A stretch of DNA of 26,442 bases from Candidatus Hydrogenedentota bacterium (GTDB lineage: Bacteria; UBA8481; J006). Both the position numbers and the translations under genes were made by a program. How positions within the stretch are numbered: position 1 is the first letter of the stretch; each line of letters begins with the position of its first letter. The stretch covers positions 1 to 26,442 of the forward strand of contig RFFU01000116.1 of assembly GCA_003697085.1 (NCBI GenBank), given 5' to 3'. Under the pieces are notes generated by a model. The model had not been told where the DNA came from, ran no database searches, and was given only the letters and a program-made list of their open reading frames with translations. Of this stretch, positions 5,138-13,078 are shown in pieces.

Positions 5138-6283
5138 TCAATCGCCAAAGGTCAGCCCGATCGAGCGGGCCGTCCGGATCATTCCCTCCGTCTTATGAAC
5201 CCGGTGATACGTCCGAATGGCCTCCTCGATCGGAACGGAGGTTATCTCGGGAGTCCGCAGGCTCACCATTCTTCCGAACTCGCGCCGCGCCGCCAAATGA
5301 ACGGCATAGGCCCCGAATCGGGTAGCCAGAATCCGATCGAAGGCGGTCGGGCTTCCCCCGCGTTGGAGGTGTCCCAGAACCGTGTATCGAATCTCGTTCT
5401 CGATCCTTCCCCCGAGTTCGCCGGCCAACCAGGCCGCGATCCCCCCGAGGCGTTTCTTCCCCTTCGGCGTCGTGTACGTCAATTCCGCCTTGCGCCCCTT
5501 CGGCCGTGCTCCCTCCGCAACAACGATGATATGAAAGCGCGCCCCCGTCGATTCCCGAAGTCGAATGTGCTCGACGATCTTTCCGATCGAGAACGGGATC
5601 TCCGGAATGAGAATAATGTCCGCTCCACCGGCGATTCCCGCCGCCAATGCGATCCAACCCGCTCCTCGTCCCATCACCTCGAGAATCATCACGCGGTCGT
5701 GGCTCTCCGCGGTCGTCGTGAGTCGATCCAACGCTTCCGTCGCAATCGTGACGGCCGTGTCGAACCCGAAGGTGTAATCCGTCGCCGCAAGATCGTTGTC
5801 GATCGTCTTCGGAACCCCCACGACCGGAAATCCGTATTTCTGGAACTCCGAAGCCACGTAAAGCGACCCTTCACCTCCAATCGCGATCAAGGCATCGATT
5901 CCGTACTCGTTGAGCGCGCGCACTCCATTCCAGAGCAGTTCCTTCCGCCGCTTCGCCGTTCCCCTCTCGAAAAAAGCGTGATACTCGCCGGTGTTCCGCG
6001 TCCCTAGGATCGTTCCTCCCCGCGGAAGAAGGCCGCGGACGGAAGCCATATCCAGAGGAAAGATCCCGCCGTCCATCAATAACCCCTCGAACCCTTCCCG
6101 AACTCCAAAGACCGACATCCCATATTGCAGGATCGCCGTTTTCACGGCCGCGCGGATGACGCCGTTGAGCCCCGGAGCATCGCCGCCGGATGTCAGCAGC
6201 GCAATCCTACGGACCCGCTCCCGCACAATTCGCTGATCCTCCTTCTTCTTTTCGGGAGACTTTTTCTTCAACCTTCGGCTCAT
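5138..6283 (-). CDS. pfkA: 6-phosphofructokinase (PfkA family, atypical Gly/Lys donor-site signature)
   Basis: Phosphorylates fructose 6-phosphate to fructose 1,6-bisphosphate in glycolysis. The 381 residues carry the donor loop GGDAPGLN (33-40), GGEGS (136-140), the catalytic PKTIDNDL (158-165), MGRGAGW (204-210), and the C-terminal substrate segment VLGHLQRGGSPTAFDR. Gly at the position equivalent to E. coli Gly104 suggests ATP use. Lys in PKTIDND, equivalent to E. coli Gly124, is typical of PPi-dependent and mixed-substrate enzymes. Donor choice therefore cannot be read off with certainty. A Lys/Arg-rich N-terminal extension of about 25 residues precedes the Rossmann strand. ATG 6283 has GAGGGGA about 9 nt upstream. 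It is first in a two-gene minus-strand unit and divergent from the histidine kinase. Confidence 0.95.
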   Translation of the reverse strand: MSRRLKKKSPEKKKEDQRIVRERVRRIALLTSGGDAPGLNGVIRAAVKTAILQYGMSVFGVREGFEGLLMDGGIFPLDMASVRGLLPRGGTILGTRNTGEYHAFFERGTAKRRKELLWNGVRALNEYGIDALIAIGGEGSLYVASEFQKYGFPVVGVPKTIDNDLAATDYTFGFDTAVTIATEALDRLTTTAESHDRVMILEVMGRGAGWIALAAGIAGGADIILIPEIPFSIGKIVEHIRLRESTGARFHIIVVAEGARPKGRKAELTYTTPKGKKRLGGIAAWLAGELGGRIENEIRYTVLGHLQRGGSPTAFDRILATRFGAYAVHLAARREFGRMVSLRTPEITSVPIEEAIRTYHRVHKTEGMIRTARSIGLTFGD

Positions 6284-6329
6284 CGATTTTTCCCCTCACT
6301 TTCTTTTCAAAACTTCCCGCGCGACACCG

Positions 6330-6371
6330 GAGTATCTCTCGGACGTCCCGCCCCTACAACCGAGTATCTCT
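6330..6371. promoter_or_regulatory. Pair of GAGTATCTCT direct repeats, 32 bp apart, in the divergent pfk / kinase gap
   Basis: GAGTATCTCT occurs at 6330-6339 and again at 6362-6371, start to start 32 bp, or about three helical turns. Both are preceded by CCG or CGG. They lie 47-88 bp upstream of the pfk start and about 160-200 bp upstream of the kinase start. This is what a dimeric regulator site would look like, but no protein can be named. Confidence 0.4.
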
Positions 6372-6528
6372 TAGGGCCCGCATTTCCTTTTCCGATCTCG
6401 CCGCGCCCCTTCTCGATCTCCTTCCGTCCCACTCCCCGCAAAGGCGCCTTCCCGGCGATACAACCGGATCTCATCCTATAACGCGAACTTCTTGCCTGCA
6501 ACGATATCCCGGAGTTACACTCGCGCTG

Positions 6529-7266
6529 ATGACGACGACGTTGCCTAAATCACCGACACCGGAAAAACTGGCCGCGCTCGGAAGCCTCACGGCCGGGCTC
6601 GTCCACGAACTTCGCAACCCCCTCAACGCAATCCGAGCCAATCTCCAACTGCTCGAGGAGGACACGGAGCGGAATGAAGGAGGCGAGGGGCCGCAGACGC
6701 GGCGCGTGCGAAGGATACTGCGCGAAGTCGATCGGCTCGACACGATCCTGACCGACTTTCTTGCCTTTGTGCGAGAACCAAAACTTCAACCGCGCCCCTT
6801 TGATCTCGCCGATCTCCTCCAGGAAATCGTGACGCTCTTGACGCCGCAGGCGGATGCCGAGGGAGTAACGATTCTGTCCGAGTTGAAGGAAGAAATCCTG
6901 ATTTCCGGAGATCGCGAATCCCTCAAACAGGCCTTGATGAACCTCGCCGTCAACGCGCTTCAGGCGATGGAGGGCTCTTCGAGCGGAACCTTGATGATCC
7001 GCCTCTCTTCTCACCCCACCCACGCGGATTGCGTTCTGATTCAAATGACGGATACGGGACGAGGTATCCCGCCGGACGTCCTTCCGCGCATCTTTGAACC
7101 GTTCTTTACCACGCGCGACGAGGGCACCGGCATCGGACTTTCGGTGGTGAAGCGGATCATCGAGGCGCACGGCGGTTCGCTCCATTGTGAAAGCGAACCC
7201 GGCCGGGGTACGTCTTTCTCCATCACGATCCCCCGCACTCGAATTTCGGAGAGGACCGATGGCTGA
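6529..7266 (+). CDS. Cytosolic histidine kinase without a sensor domain (NtrB/ZraS-like catalytic core)
   Basis: Autophosphorylating kinase of a two-component system. It is only 245 residues long and begins almost at the H-box, GLVHELRNPLNAI, with phosphorylatable His26. The N-box (LMNLAVNALQAM, 137-148), G1 (DTGRGIPP, 175-182), F-box (FEPFFTT) and G2 (EGTGIGLSVVKR) all follow. There is no transmembrane segment, PAS, GAF or HAMP domain, so input must come from a partner protein or from the DHp domain itself. The ATG at 6529 is chosen because the same frame upstream is non-homologous. GGAG at 6511-6514 is rather distant (14 nt). It overlaps the regulator gene by 8 nt, which indicates translational coupling. 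Confidence 0.9.
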   Translation: MTTTLPKSPTPEKLAALGSLTAGLVHELRNPLNAIRANLQLLEEDTERNEGGEGPQTRRVRRILREVDRLDTILTDFLAFVREPKLQPRPFDLADLLQEIVTLLTPQADAEGVTILSELKEEILISGDRESLKQALMNLAVNALQAMEGSSSGTLMIRLSSHPTHADCVLIQMTDTGRGIPPDVLPRIFEPFFTTRDEGTGIGLSVVKRIIEAHGGSLHCESEPGRGTSFSITIPRTRISERTDG

Positions 7267-8620
7267 AGTCCTCGTCGTCGATGACGATACCGCTTCGCGC
7301 GACGTAATCGTGGAGGCGCTGGAGCGCGAAGGCCACAAAGTCGCCGGCGCCAAGAGCGGAGCGGAAGCACTCGAGAATATCAAAGCGCGCAACTATGACC
7401 TCATCGTCACGGATCTCGTTATGCCCAACATCGATGGATTTCGCATACTCGACGAGGCCCGATCACTCGACCCCGCACCGGAAGTGGTCATCTTGACGGG
7501 ATACGGGAGCGTTGAATCCGCCGTCGACGCGATGAAGCGAGGCGCCTTCCAATATCTCAATAAACCCGTCAACATCGCGGAACTGCGGGAGGTCTGCCGC
7601 AAGGCCCTCGAACGTCATCAACTCGCCCGGGATAACCTTCAACTCCGCCGAACGGTCGATGAACGTTTCGGGTTCGAACAGATCATTGGAAACTCCCCGC
7701 CGATGCTCAAACTCTTTCAGACTATTCGGCAGGTCGCTCCGACCTCAGCCAATGTTCTCATCACCGGCCCCAGCGGAACCGGCAAGGAATTGATCGCCCA
7801 CGCTATCCACAACAACTCTCCGCGCAAAAAGAAACCGTTCCTCGCCTTCAACTGTGGAGCCTTGACGGAATCCCTCATTGAATCCGAACTCTTCGGCCAT
7901 GAACGCGGCGCCTTCACGGGGGCTGTCGGCGACCGCAAAGGCTACTTCGAACTCGCCGACGGCGGGACTCTCCTGCTCGATGAGATCGGGGATATGCCCC
8001 TTCACACGCAGGTCAAACTCCTCCGCGTCCTCGAAACCCAGTCCTTCTTCCGCGTTGGCGGTGTGCGAAAGATCGAGGTCGATGTTCGCGTGCTGGCGGC
8101 TACCAACGCCGACCTCGAATCCCTCATCGCCGAGAATCGCTTCCGCCAGGACCTCTACTTTCGTCTCAAAGTCCTCACCCTCGATGTCCCTCCTCTCTCC
8201 GCGCGCTCCTCCGATATTCCCCTTCTCCTCAATCACTTTCTCGAACAGTTCGGCGAACGTCACGGAAAACCAGGTCTTACGATTGAGTCGGAGGCCGTCC
8301 GCGCTTTGGTAAATTACTCCTGGCCGGGCAACGTCCGCGAACTGAAAAACCTCGTCGAAAACCTCGTCATCACAGCTACCTCTTCCCGTATCACGCTTCA
8401 AGACCTTCCGCCGACCATCTCCGGACGCGACGCCGTCTCCTCCTCCGGTCGCTTCTATTTCGAAGATGGAATGACGATGGAGGAAATTGAACGCGAAGCC
8501 ATCCGCATCGCACTGGAGCGAACCGGAGGAAATAAGAAACGTGCTGCAGAACGTCTCGGAATGAGTCTCCGGACCTTCCACAGAAAAGTGAAAAATTTGG
8601 CAGGAACCGAAAAGAAATGA
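7259..8620 (+). CDS. NtrC-family sigma-54-dependent response regulator
   Basis: Bacterial enhancer-binding protein of 453 residues that remodels sigma-54 RNA polymerase at -24/-12 promoters. The receiver domain (1-115) has the acidic pocket DDD (8-10), phospho-site Asp52, Thr80 and Lys102. The AAA+ domain (about 138-365) has Walker A GPSGTGKE (170-177), the sigma-54 contact loop GAFTGA (217-222), Walker B GGTLLLDEIGD (235-245) and an arginine-finger region. A Fis-type helix-turn-helix closes the protein (GGNKKRAAERLGMSLRTFHRKV). Every functional motif is intact. ATG 7259 follows GGAGAGG and overlaps the kinase stop. Two excellent sigma-54 promoters within 3 kb downstream are its obvious candidate targets. 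Confidence 0.96.
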   Translation: MAEVLVVDDDTASRDVIVEALEREGHKVAGAKSGAEALENIKARNYDLIVTDLVMPNIDGFRILDEARSLDPAPEVVILTGYGSVESAVDAMKRGAFQYLNKPVNIAELREVCRKALERHQLARDNLQLRRTVDERFGFEQIIGNSPPMLKLFQTIRQVAPTSANVLITGPSGTGKELIAHAIHNNSPRKKKPFLAFNCGALTESLIESELFGHERGAFTGAVGDRKGYFELADGGTLLLDEIGDMPLHTQVKLLRVLETQSFFRVGGVRKIEVDVRVLAATNADLESLIAENRFRQDLYFRLKVLTLDVPPLSARSSDIPLLLNHFLEQFGERHGKPGLTIESEAVRALVNYSWPGNVRELKNLVENLVITATSSRITLQDLPPTISGRDAVSSSGRFYFEDGMTMEEIEREAIRIALERTGGNKKRAAERLGMSLRTFHRKVKNLAGTEKK

Positions 8621-8696
8621 TGTCATTTTGGCGTTATTTCTCTCGCGGAAACCGTGCGTTCTTATTGATTTTACGAGAGTTATGTCTATGACTTCA

Positions 8697-8711
8697 TGGC
8701 ACGCTCATTGC
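8697..8711 (+). promoter_or_regulatory. Sigma-54 (-24/-12) promoter for the receiver-protein / dnaK unit
   Basis: TGGCACG-CTCA-TTGC fits the sigma-54 consensus TGGCAC-N5-TTGC at every defined base. GG of -24 is at 8698-8699 and GC of -12 at 8710-8711, so transcription should begin near 8722. It starts 76 bp after the stop codon of the NtrC-type activator. CTCTCG (8640-8645) and CGAGAG (8674-8679) form an inverted pair upstream, but no convincing enhancer site was found. Confidence 0.85.
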
Positions 8712-8736
8712 CCCTCATCCCCTCCGATTTCAAGAA

Positions 8737-8761
8737 CCGCCCGGAATTTCAATCCGGGAGG
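8737..8761 (+). promoter_or_regulatory. Stem-loop in the leader of the sigma-54-driven transcript
   Basis: CCCGGA (8740-8745) pairs with TCCGGG (8753-8758) around a 7-nt loop. Two more pairs lie outside one mismatch. It lies between the predicted start point (about 8722) and the ribosome site GAGGGTG (8774-8780), so it could affect message stability or translation. Confidence 0.4.
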
Positions 8762-8785
8762 CGTGAAGAGAACGAGGGTGTAACG

Positions 8786-9271
8786 ATGGTGCGGTCGATT
8801 CTCATTGCGGAAGACGAGGAATTGAGCCGCAACACGTTGGCTGAAGCATTCGAGCGAAGCGGGTATCGGGTTGAAACAGCGCCCGACGGAATCACGGCGC
8901 TGGAGCGAGCCTGTCGCCCGCACGTTCATCTCGGCATCTTCGATTACCAAATGCCGGGCCTGGACGGGCTCGAGGTTCTTCGCCGGGTAATGGAACGCAG
9001 AGAGGATCTTCCGGTCCTCATTATGACCTCGGCTGCGGAAAACCGCATCCGCCGCCGGGCCTTGGAGCTGGGAGCCCGAGCGTTCTTTCCAAAGCCGATC
9101 GATCTTCGGCGTCTGCGGAAGACGGTCGTATCATTGATCGGCGAGGAGTTGTCGCTGGCGCTCTACGACGACGGTTTTTCGTCCATCTCGATCCGAACAG
9201 GATCGAGTGAAATTACGATTCAGTCGCGCTCTCTTCCGGATCCATTTCCAGGCGGTTCGAAGGAAGAATAG
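8786..9271 (+). CDS. Receiver-domain-only response regulator with a 40-residue tail
   Basis: A single CheY-like receiver domain (residues 4-120). It has the acidic residues ED/E (9-11), phospho-acceptor Asp53 in [11 protein letters not shown], Thr81 and Lys103 (FFPKPID). No DNA-binding or enzymatic output domain follows, only about 40 residues ending in a Pro/Gly/Ser/Glu-rich tail. It could be a phosphate sink, a phosphorelay intermediate or an allosteric partner, possibly of the sensorless kinase upstream. ATG 8786 has GAGGGTG at 8774-8780. An upstream in-frame ATG at 8696 overlaps the sigma-54 promoter itself and is rejected. dnaK starts 82 nt downstream without an obvious promoter of its own, so the two are probably cotranscribed. 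Confidence 0.88.
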
Positions 9272-9353
9272 CGTTCTCTGCGGAACTAAGGTTTCGTTCG
9301 AGAAGAAACGATACGGAATGGCGGAAACGCCCCGCTCAAGAGGAGGTAGAAAA

Positions 9354-11300
9354 ATGGGAAAGATCATCGGAATTGATCTTGGAACAACAAATTCTTGCGT
9401 CTCGGTTCTCGAGGGAAGCGAGCCGACGGTCATTCAGAACGCGGAGGGAGGTCGGACCACGCCCTCCGTCGTCGCTTATACGAAGGACGGCGAACGTCTC
9501 GTCGGCCAGGCCGCAAAACGCCAGGCCGTCGTCAATCCCGAGAATACCATCTTTTCGATCAAGCGTTTTATGGGACGGCGGTACGATGAGGTGGGAGAGG
9601 AGATCAAACGTGTTCCCTACAAAGTCGCCCGGCACGACAACGGAGATGCTCATGTCGAGATTCGCGGGAAGCGGTACAGCCCTCCCGAGATTTCGGCGAT
9701 GATTCTTCAGAAGATGCGCCAGACCGCGGAAGATTATCTTGGGGAAAAGGTAACGGAAGCGGTCATCACGGTGCCGGCCTACTTCAATGACGCCCAACGG
9801 CAGGCGACCAAGGATGCCGGAAAGATCGCGGGACTCGAGGTGCGCCGAATCATAAACGAACCGACCGCCGCCGCGTTGGCCTACGGACTCGATAAGAAGA
9901 AGGATGAAAAGATCGCCGTCTTCGACCTCGGCGGCGGAACTTTTGACATCTCCATCCTCGAGATCGGCGAAGGCGTGGTCGAGGTGAAATCGACCAACGG
10001 CGACACCCACCTCGGCGGCGACGATTTCGACAACGTCCTCGTGGATGAACTCGCCGAGAATTTCAAGAAGGAAACGGGCGTGGACATCCGCCAGGATCGT
10101 ATGGCGCTCCAACGCCTCAAGGAAGCCGCGGAAAAGGCCAAGTGCGAACTCTCCACCTCGATGGAGACGGAAGTGAATCTGCCGTTCATCACGGCCGACG
10201 CCACCGGGCCCAAACATCTCGTTCAAAAGATCACCCGCGCTCAATTCGAACGTCTGGTGGAACCTCTGGTCGAGCGAACGGTGGAACCGTGTAGGAAGGC
10301 CTTGGAAGACGCCGGGTTGAAGGCCTCCGATATCGACGAAATCGTCCTTGTCGGCGGCGCGACTCGGATGCCGATCATCCAGGAAAAGGTGAAGCAGATT
10401 TTCGGTAAGGCTCCCAATAAATCCGTCAATCCCGATGAGGTCGTGGCAATGGGAGCCGCGATTCAAGGGGCCGTTCTCTCCGAAGACCCCAACGTGAAGG
10501 ACATACTGCTCCTTGACGTGACCCCGTTGTCTTTGGGTGTGGAGGTCGAAGGAGGATTGATGAACGTCATGATTCCAAGAAACACGACGATCCCGACCAA
10601 GAAATCCCAAGTTTACTCCACGGCCGCCGACAATCAACCGCGGGTGGAGATCAACGTCCTCCAAGGGGAACGCCCGATGGCGAAGGACAACAAATCTCTG
10701 GGCCGCTTCATCCTCGACGGAATTCCGCCCGCCCCGCGGGGAATCCCGCAGATCGAGGTCACCTTCGATATCGATGCCAACGGCATCATCCACGTCACGG
10801 CCAAGGACAAGGCCACCGGGAAGGAGCAGAGCATTCGCATCGAGGCTTCCTCGGGACTGACGAAGGAAGAGATCGACCGTGCGGTACGCGAAGCCGAGGC
10901 GCATGCCGAGGAAGACCGCAAGGCGCGGGAGGAAATTGAGACGATCAACCAGGGGGACCACGAGGTTTACGCCACCGAGAAATCCCTCAAGGAGCTCGGG
11001 GACAAGATCGGCGCGTCCGAAAAGGAAGCCATCGAAAAGGCCTGCGAGGCCGTCAAGAAGGCGGTCGAGGAGCGAAACGCGGCGGAAGTGCGCCGCACGC
11101 TCGAGGAATTGCGCAAGGTTCGAGACGAGGCGGTGGCGAAGGCCTATCAGGCTCAACAGGCAGCGGGAAGCTCCGGAGGTGGATCCGACGCCTCCGCTGC
11201 GCAAACTCCACCACCGGCGGATCATTCCACCGAAAAAGGCTCGCAAGAAGGAGGCGGAAGCGGTAAAGTCGTTGATGCCGACTTTGAAGTGAAGTCTTGA
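9354..11300 (+). CDS. dnaK: Molecular chaperone DnaK (Hsp70)
   Basis: ATP-driven cytosolic chaperone of 648 residues, normal family length. The nucleotide-binding domain has [10 protein letters not shown] (5-14), [11 protein letters not shown] (169-179), [10 protein letters not shown] (189-198) and [10 protein letters not shown] (331-340). The interdomain linker [13 protein letters not shown] (383-395) leads to the substrate-binding domain and a helical lid. The C-terminus is a Gly/Ser/Pro-rich linker ending [10 protein letters not shown], close to the usual conserved DADFEEV tail. ATG 9354 has AGGAGG 7 nt upstream. Neither grpE nor dnaJ is adjacent, and no CIRCE element (TTAGCACTC-N9-GAGTGCTAA) is visible. 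With the sigma-54 promoter before the preceding gene, this suggests non-standard control. Another dnaK may exist elsewhere in the genome. Confidence 0.98.
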
Positions 11301-11419
11301 ACGATAGGAACGGAAAAGGAGAAGGAAGAGGAGGAGGAGAAGGGCGGGCGAAGCCCGAAGCGTTCCGCACTTCACAAGATCGATGTCGGATCGGTGTCCG
11401 AGACGTTTTTTCGGTTTCA

Positions 11420-11435
11420 TGGCACGATCCTTGCT
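11420..11435 (+). promoter_or_regulatory. Sigma-54 (-24/-12) promoter of htrA/degP
   Basis: TGGCACG-ATCC-TTGCT is a full match to the extended sigma-54 consensus TGGCACG-N4-TTGCW. GG of -24 is at 11421-11422 and GC of -12 at 11433-11434, giving a start near 11446 and an 86-nt leader before the ATG at 11532. It shares the flank TTCATGGCACG with the promoter at 8697. TCGGA (11386-11390) and TCCGA (11397-11401) form a small inverted pair just upstream. GGAAAC-GG-GTTTCC (11471-11484) is a hairpin in the leader. Confidence 0.88.
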
Positions 11436-11531
11436 GCTTTTCCGATGGAGCGGTTTCGTTTCTGGGAAGGGGAAACGGGTTTCCTCATCCTCGCGCGCGG
11501 GCCGCTTGATTTCATCGAGGAGGTTGACATT

Positions 11532-13052
11532 ATGAACGGATCCCGTACCCGAACCGGTTTTCTTGCGAAACTGCTTGCGGCGCTCTTCGTCGCCGCGTTC
11601 CTCTTTACGCTCGCCGCGGCGACTCATTACGCCTACAGCGCCTTCTTCGCCGATCCGCAAAAGGCAACCGCCGTTTCCTCCGCCTTCGACCCCGCTCTCT
11701 CGAGCGGCACCGTCGCCGATCTCCAATCCGCTATTGTTCGCGCCGCGGAGAAGGCTATGCCCGCCGTCGTCGCAATTTCAACCAAATCCGTCGAACGGGT
11801 TCGTCCCTATACCTCGCCCTTCGCCAATGATCCTTTCTTCCGCCATTTCTTCGGGGACGACTTCTTCTTCGGTTCCCCTTATCCTCAGGACCGTATCCGC
11901 CAGGGTCTGGGTTCCGGCGTTATCGTTGACGGCTCCGGAATCGTGCTCACGAATCATCACGTCATCAACGATGCCGACGAAATTGTCGTCACGCTGGCCG
12001 ACGGTCGCGAGTACGCCGCTGAAACGGCGGGGTCCGACAAACGTACGGATATCGCCGTCCTTAAACTCAAAGACGTCGATGGAACGCTCCCCTCCGCTCC
12101 CTTGGGCAACTCCGATGACCTCAAGGTCGGCATGTTCGTGCTCGCTATCGGAACCCCGTTCAGCAAGACGATGTCGCAGACGGTGACGATGGGAATCATC
12201 TCCGCCCTCGGGCGAAGCGGCTTGCGAATCGAGGAGGTCGAAAACCTGATTCAAACGGACGCCGCCATCAATCCGGGAAATTCCGGAGGGCCGCTTGTCA
12301 ATATCCGCGGCGAGGTCGTCGGAATAAATGCCGCGATCATCACCGGAGGCGGTCAGGGTAACAACGGGATCGGATTCGCAATCCCCATCAATACCGCCCG
12401 CCACGTCTATCGCTCGATTCTCAAACACGGTCGCGTCATTCGCGGCTACCTCGGTGTCTCTATCCAGAACCTCAACGAGGAACTCCGCAAAAAACTCGGC
12501 CTTCCGGACCCCCAAGGAGCCCTCGTCACCGAGGTGAAGGAGGGCACACCGGCCGACGAGGCGGAACTCGAACCGGGGGATGTCATCGTCGAATGGGACG
12601 GCCAAAAGATTCGAAACACCTCGCAGCTCCTCGAAGCCGTCTCGACGACCGAAATCGGAAGAAAGGTCAAGGTCGTCTTCTACCGTGACGGAGAACGAAG
12701 ATCGACGGTTGTCACCGTTGTCGAGCATCCGGAATCCGGAAAGGGAATCCGATCGAAGACGCTGGGCGGCCAGAGCGAGATTGAAAAACTCGGTGTGATC
12801 GTCAAGGAAGTCGAGGGAGAGGAAGCCGAAAAGTACGATGCCGATCCCACAGGGTGCGTCGTCGTCGTCTCCGTCAATCCCAATTCGTTGGCCGAGGAGG
12901 TTGGAATTCGTCCCGGAACCTGCATCCTCCAGGTGAATCGACATCCGATCCGTACCATCGACGATCTCCAGGAGGCTCTCGAGGACGCCGACAGCGCCAT
13001 TCTGCTCCTTCGCTACCGCGGCTCGAATCGGTTTGTCGCCGTCACATTTTGA
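11532..13052 (+). CDS. degP: Periplasmic serine protease, HtrA/DegP family
   Basis: Envelope quality-control protease/chaperone of 506 residues. It has a basic N-terminus and a hydrophobic signal or anchor (11-30), then a trypsin-like domain with catalytic His143 (LTNHHVI), Asp173 (RTDIAVL) and Ser251 (GNSGGP). A Phe/Asp-rich LA-loop segment (about 97-118) lies between strands. PDZ1 (about 305-395) has GYLGVSIQ, and a more divergent PDZ2 (about 415-505) ends the protein at VAVTF. The ATG at 11532 has GAGGAGG 8 nt upstream. The longer open frame back to 11394 spans the sigma-54 promoter and is not coding. Its stop codon overlaps the -35 box of the cysDN promoter. It likely degrades misfolded envelope proteins under sigma-54/NtrC-type control. 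Confidence 0.96.
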   Translation: MNGSRTRTGFLAKLLAALFVAAFLFTLAAATHYAYSAFFADPQKATAVSSAFDPALSSGTVADLQSAIVRAAEKAMPAVVAISTKSVERVRPYTSPFANDPFFRHFFGDDFFFGSPYPQDRIRQGLGSGVIVDGSGIVLTNHHVINDADEIVVTLADGREYAAETAGSDKRTDIAVLKLKDVDGTLPSAPLGNSDDLKVGMFVLAIGTPFSKTMSQTVTMGIISALGRSGLRIEEVENLIQTDAAINPGNSGGPLVNIRGEVVGINAAIITGGGQGNNGIGFAIPINTARHVYRSILKHGRVIRGYLGVSIQNLNEELRKKLGLPDPQGALVTEVKEGTPADEAELEPGDVIVEWDGQKIRNTSQLLEAVSTTEIGRKVKVVFYRDGERRSTVVTVVEHPESGKGIRSKTLGGQSEIEKLGVIVKEVEGEEAEKYDADPTGCVVVVSVNPNSLAEEVGIRPGTCILQVNRHPIRTIDDLQEALEDADSAILLLRYRGSNRFVAVTF

Positions 13053-13078
13053 CAGAGCGAAGTTTGCAAGAGTATAAT
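13049..13078 (+). promoter_or_regulatory. Consensus sigma-70 promoter of cysDN
   Basis: TTGACA (13049-13054) and TATAAT (13073-13078) are perfect boxes with an 18-bp spacer. The -35 box overlaps the htrA stop codon (13050-13052). Predicted start is near 13085, giving a leader of about 65 nt before cysD. Confidence 0.8.

Follow-up and report, generated by a model that had tools for sequence, protein, structure and literature searches.

Five genes in the same direction make up the locus at 6529-13052 of the window, by which we mean the whole stretch of 26,442 nucleotides analysed here (contig C9 of a 3.2 Mb draft genome, 94.6% complete). They encode a histidine kinase, an NtrC-type activator, a receiver-only protein, DnaK and HtrA, and these names, given by a first-pass annotation from the letters alone, are in agreement with the domain and family profiles. 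Comparison within the phylum comprised the source genome and one relative, G001, which belongs to the same order and another family (its contig matches Candidatus Hydrogenedentes bacterium CG07_land_8_20_14_0_80_42_17); relatives were sought through the NtrC protein, which yielded this one genome of the group, the rest being NtrC relatives in other phyla. The features are:

6529..7266, plus strand: histidine kinase core, HisKA and HATPase domains, 245 aa (domain profiles; ortholog with 55% identity in G001)
7259..8620, plus strand: NtrC-type response regulator, REC, AAA sigma-54 interaction and Fis HTH domains (domain profiles; ortholog with 65% identity in G001)
8644..8663, plus strand: weak terminator-like hairpin 3' of the activator gene (pattern only)
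8697..8711, plus strand: sigma-54 -24/-12 site, TGGCACG-CTCA-TTGC (exact pattern match; predicted transcription start near 8723)
8786..9271, plus strand: receiver-only protein, 161 aa (domain profiles; partial ortholog, 50%, directly 5' of dnaK in G001)
9354..11300, plus strand: dnaK (profile search, TIGR02350 over cut-off)
11386..11411, plus strand: hairpin and T-run, probable dnaK terminator (pattern only)
11420..11434, plus strand: sigma-54 -24/-12 site, TGGCACG-ATCC-TTGC, then T (exact pattern match; predicted transcription start near 11446)
11532..13052, plus strand: htrA/degP, Do family, trypsin-like domain and two PDZ domains (profile search, TIGR02037 over cut-off)

The genes and their counterparts in G001

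The domain profile search found no sensor domain in the 245-aa kinase, and the G001 ortholog shares its short N-terminus. The start of the activator gene overlaps the end of the kinase gene (7259 and 7266). The activator is intact and has all three parts that define the NtrC family (REC, the sigma-54 interaction AAA domain and a Fis-type HTH) as well as the GAFTGA motif, and it scores below the curated NCBIfam cut-offs for NtrC (451 vs 559), ZraR (403 vs 760), GlrR (369 vs 763) and PspF (279 vs 444). The phospho-acceptor residues are retained in the translation of the receiver-only protein, and dnaK is single-copy in the source genome. The two hairpins come from a terminator scan which overall finds no more hairpins than shuffles do.

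Two gene pairs are kept in G001, kinase-activator and receiver-dnaK, the latter with 50% and 76% identity. The contig with kinase-activator breaks off in short tandem repeats soon after the pair, and the contig with receiver-dnaK begins inside the receiver gene, the region 5' of it lying outside the assembly. The same gene order as in the window is therefore possible but unproven, since both pairs terminate at contig breaks. The repeats (CAATTTGCACTTTC-like) occupy L093 1-150, at the end of G001:C155, just downstream of the activator gene. A flagellin gene stands 3' of dnaK in G001, and htrA was not found in this genome, which is 86% complete.

The two -24/-12 sites and their genomic setting

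The first-pass annotation had proposed that the window holds only two matches to TGGCACG-N4-TTGC, both within 3 kb of the activator, one preceding the receiver-only gene and dnaK and the other htrA. These observations hold: the matches at 8697 and 11420 are exact and no other exact match occurs, the second lies 2.8 kb from the activator stop, and their positions and orientation are as described. Both sites are intergenic and in promoter orientation, the first between the activator and receiver genes (a gap of 165 bp) and the second between dnaK and htrA (231 bp), with 89 bp and 112 bp, respectively, from the first base of the site to the start codon; in each, GG and GC stand ten bases apart 5' of a gene, as in -24/-12 promoters. 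Matches with up to two mismatches are at chance level in the window (6 vs 5.6 expected), and a search for a shared activator-binding element 5' of both promoters gave none above shuffled sequence. No sigma-70-type promoter was found from 6200 to 13049 with a strict consensus scan, which misses weak promoters. A perfect promoter of this type, TTGACA-18-TATAAT, is found directly 3' of htrA (13049-13078, plus strand), before cysD-like and cysN-like genes.

A scan of the whole genome, as the earlier annotation had suggested, gave five exact sites in 3.2 Mb, all 5' of genes in promoter orientation, the other three preceding glnA, a pilin-like (GFTLLEM) gene and a TPR-protein gene. Neither the exact sites (5 vs 3 for the reversed pattern) nor a looser motif (8 vs 14 for the control) are enriched in number, and since the counts show no excess yet every exact site precedes a gene, the evidence for the sites is their position and not their number. 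Genes for glutamine synthetase (glnA) and pilins are classical sigma-54 targets, and the motif thus works as a marker in this genome despite its count. The gene rpoN, on whose presence the earlier proposal depended, is there and complete, with the AID, CBD and DBD domains (three Pfam domains), and about ten good sigma-54 activators are encoded. HrcA was not found in the source genome or in G001, and no sigma factor of the source genome is over the RpoH family cut-off (best 145 bits vs 323). The grpE-dnaJ genes are located elsewhere in the genome, without a sigma-54 site.

Sigma-54-like sites at dnaK in other genomes

The survey covered the sequence 5' of 106 dnaK genes, for the most part a single gene from each family (105 genes without the window); eight fetched regions were left out because the dnaK start was unrecognised. 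An exact site occurs within 1 kb of 5 of the 105 genes, against 0 in shuffled sequence (first-order Markov), and a site with at most one mismatch occurs in 18/105, against 0.65 in such sequence; at one mismatch, one site was found on the opposite strand and one with the reversed pattern. Within 200 bp the near-exact sites number 12/105 against 0.07 expected, each of them 50-99 bp 5' of the dnaK start codon. Several of the more distant sites stand 5' of hsp20-dnaK operons. In G013 and G161, two genomes of one family, the longest conserved block in the aligned dnaK upstream region is CGGCACT..CTTGCAC, with two mismatches to the sigma-54 consensus. Predicted sigma-54 sites 5' of dnaK are accordingly not peculiar to the source genome and recur in many bacterial lineages. 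A CIRCE pattern was also tried and proved uninformative, with 0 matches near the surveyed dnaK genes even beside hrcA.

The neighbourhoods of 20 sigma-54-type dnaK loci (17 with at most one mismatch, three with two) were compared with those of 20 controls; cases were picked by their site and controls taken from the top of the ranking without one, and one control, L365, proved to carry a sigma-54-like site further upstream. The gene for HrcA lies beside dnaK in none of the sigma-54-type loci and in 6/20 controls (p = 0.02). The difference for htrA near dnaK (5/20 vs 1/20, p = 0.18) is not significant, and there is none for Hsp20 (6 loci in each group of 20). Most sigma-54-type dnaK loci of other genomes do not have NtrC nearby.

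Several single loci resemble the window. In an unrelated genome (L328, G137:C8:32000-48500, minus strand) an exact site is followed by hsp20, dnaK, grpE, htrA and clpB in an apparent operon; the order is site, dnaK, htrA in L334, dnaJ, htrA, site, dnaK, clpB in L341, and site, hsp20, grpE, dnaJ, htrA in L344, where a later site precedes hsp20, dnaK and clpB. Receiver-only genes stand ahead of dnaK in two further unrelated genomes, in L345 (8940-9368, minus strand) behind a weaker sigma-54-like site with two mismatches, and in L365 (9768-10193, minus strand) with a weaker site with one mismatch and a 269-aa protein in between.

Other arrangements were also observed. L329 (53-7006, plus strand) encodes a protein of 1644 aa that resembles a protein kinase at its N-terminus and ends in an NtrC-type domain; a second AAA-like ORF follows, and both lie 5' of dnaK and its exact sigma-54 site. 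In Acidobacteria bacterium Mor1 (L102 9977-15022, plus strand) NtrC, a receiver-only protein, HtrA and a second NtrC are encoded consecutively, with a weak sigma-54-like site (two mismatches) 5' of the receiver gene. G025 has two dnaK genes (L098, L099), one beside hrcA and grpE and the other behind a sigma-54-like site, possibly a split of heat-shock control between paralogues.

Control of the locus and relation to known systems

Receiver-dnaK and htrA are each predicted to have a sigma-54 promoter, and the prediction is well supported, given the position of the sites, the presence of rpoN, the failure to find HrcA or an RpoH over the cut-off, and the recurrence and footprint in other genomes. 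As to what drives them, we lean towards a local proteostasis switch, in which both promoters would be gated by the kinase and NtrC, with the receiver damping the kinase. The sensorless kinase would phosphorylate the adjacent activator, and activated NtrC would remodel sigma-54 polymerase at the two -24/-12 promoters, the first transcribing receiver-dnaK and the second htrA; such a switch would substitute for control of dnaK by RpoH or HrcA, neither of which was found in the source genome. The receiver-only protein, which would be made together with DnaK, probably accepts phosphate from this kinase and so brakes the response, and kinase activity may be set by DnaK or by the amount of misfolded protein. 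We infer that the promoters are used and that the adjacent activator acts on both of them, as well as the signal and the part of the receiver in feedback; that the adjacent pair controls both promoters is plausible.

The local switch is favoured by the exact sites in both gaps, the placement of all five genomic sites before genes and the complete rpoN, by the results for HrcA, RpoH and sigma-70-type promoters, and by the two pairs kept in G001. It is also favoured by the near-exact sites close to dnaK in the survey with the within-family footprint, by the sigma-54 clusters of dnaK and htrA in L328, L334, L341 and L344, and by the receiver-only genes before dnaK in L345 and L365. It is weakened by the number of activators, the failure to find a shared binding site, a grpE-dnaJ without a sigma-54 site, and the finding that G001 keeps kinase and activator without a detectable htrA.

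Cells normally require a basal level of DnaK, and this need lends weight to tandem control, in which sigma-54 would add inducible expression to that from weak sigma-70-type promoters. There is a precedent for it in Chlamydia hrcA-grpE-dnaK (PMC8762339), and we regard it as possible for the source locus, but the strict scan detected no sigma-70-type promoter upstream of receiver-dnaK or htrA; tandem control is in any case compatible with the local switch. We find it rather unlikely that both promoters depend on sigma-54 and are driven by another activator, with the adjacent pair serving something else or only receiver-dnaK. The many activators in the genome, the absence of a detected shared binding site, the scarcity of NtrC near sigma-54-type dnaK loci elsewhere and the pair in G001, where no htrA was found, are in line with it, whereas the pair is adjacent to the promoters and in the same direction, and both pairs persist in G001 with contig breaks oriented as expected of one locus. 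That the sites are chance matches, dnaK and htrA using sigma-70-type promoters, would fit the lack of numerical enrichment, a promoter scan that misses weak promoters and the basal need for dnaK, but is very improbable: each of the two short gaps holds a correctly oriented exact match of 11 bases, the remaining three exact sites likewise stand 5' of genes, glnA included, and positional enrichment 5' of dnaK in other genomes is strong.

Returning to the local switch, it is tempting to speculate, while holding it doubtful in this full form, that lineages without HrcA and RpoH have a self-contained sigma-54 heat-shock system, in which a sensorless kinase would read the folding load through DnaK, NtrC would induce dnaK and htrA across two compartments, and the co-induced receiver would drain phosphate from the kinase as a brake; on this reading the receiver-dnaK order in unrelated genomes would make it a third general way to regulate dnaK, beside RpoH and HrcA. 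The source locus, with the genes for DnaK and the envelope protease HtrA both behind predicted sigma-54 promoters and next to a likely control switch, is real and not unique; in other families, too, an appreciable fraction of dnaK genes has a canonical sigma-54 promoter sequence at the right distance, with hrcA not beside dnaK. If this is borne out, many poorly studied bacteria rely on activator-gated sigma-54 transcription for their response to protein damage, and the source locus supplies two targets together with a candidate activator and a candidate brake.

In the standard picture RpoH or HrcA governs dnaK, and sigma-E or Cpx governs degP. ZraSR, GlrKR and PspF resemble the source locus as systems in which sigma-54 activators answer stress with local targets, but their targets are not dnaK or htrA and the window activator scores below their cut-offs; ZraS and GlrK are moreover membrane sensors, unlike the window kinase with no sensor domain found. 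The text on the Desulfovibrio vulgaris sigma-54 regulome mentions neither dnaK nor htrA. In Chlamydia trachomatis hrcA-grpE-dnaK has a sigma-54 promoter, and AtoS-AtoC are a kinase and an NtrC-type activator (PMC8762339), but that promoter is in tandem with a sigma-66 promoter and there is repression by HrcA, which was not found in the source genome, and AtoC is the sole activator and not adjacent by design (PMC8762339). A 2025 survey reports enrichment of predicted sigma-54 promoters for the DnaK, GrpE, DnaJ, GroEL and IbpA groups in Planctomycetota and Bacteroidota (PMC12316311), phyla with which our survey genomes may overlap; its predictions are by group, and the text searched has no HtrA and no link to a local activator or receiver-only gene. 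For Flavobacterium psychrophilum, 5'-end-mapped sigma-54 promoters (motif SM4) are published on dnaK, grpE-dnaJ, groESL, clpB, htpG, lon and skp, an envelope chaperone; the regulon is described in terms of protein quality control and the response to envelope stress, and none of the three candidate activators is assigned (PMC9723704). That species belongs to another phylum and has a sigma-54 promoter on grpE-dnaJ, where the source genome has no site, and its promoter list, as far as examined, contains neither htrA nor a receiver-only leader (PMC9723704), both of which the source locus has.

The open-licence papers searched gave no instance of htrA under sigma-54 control, of a dedicated activator encoded alongside, or of a leading receiver-only gene. 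The joining of Hsp70 and a periplasmic protease under sigma-54 had been called unusual by the first-pass annotation; the joining stands as a prediction, but the word needs softening, as the arrangement recurs in several unrelated genomes and is preceded by the TSS-mapped F. psychrophilum proteostasis regulon (PMC9723704) and by wider predictions (PMC12316311). Given the mapped promoters on dnaK and other chaperone genes in F. psychrophilum, the source locus is a variation on a known theme: sigma-54 control of chaperones is already known, and the newer parts are the adjacent activator, htrA as a target and the leading receiver gene.
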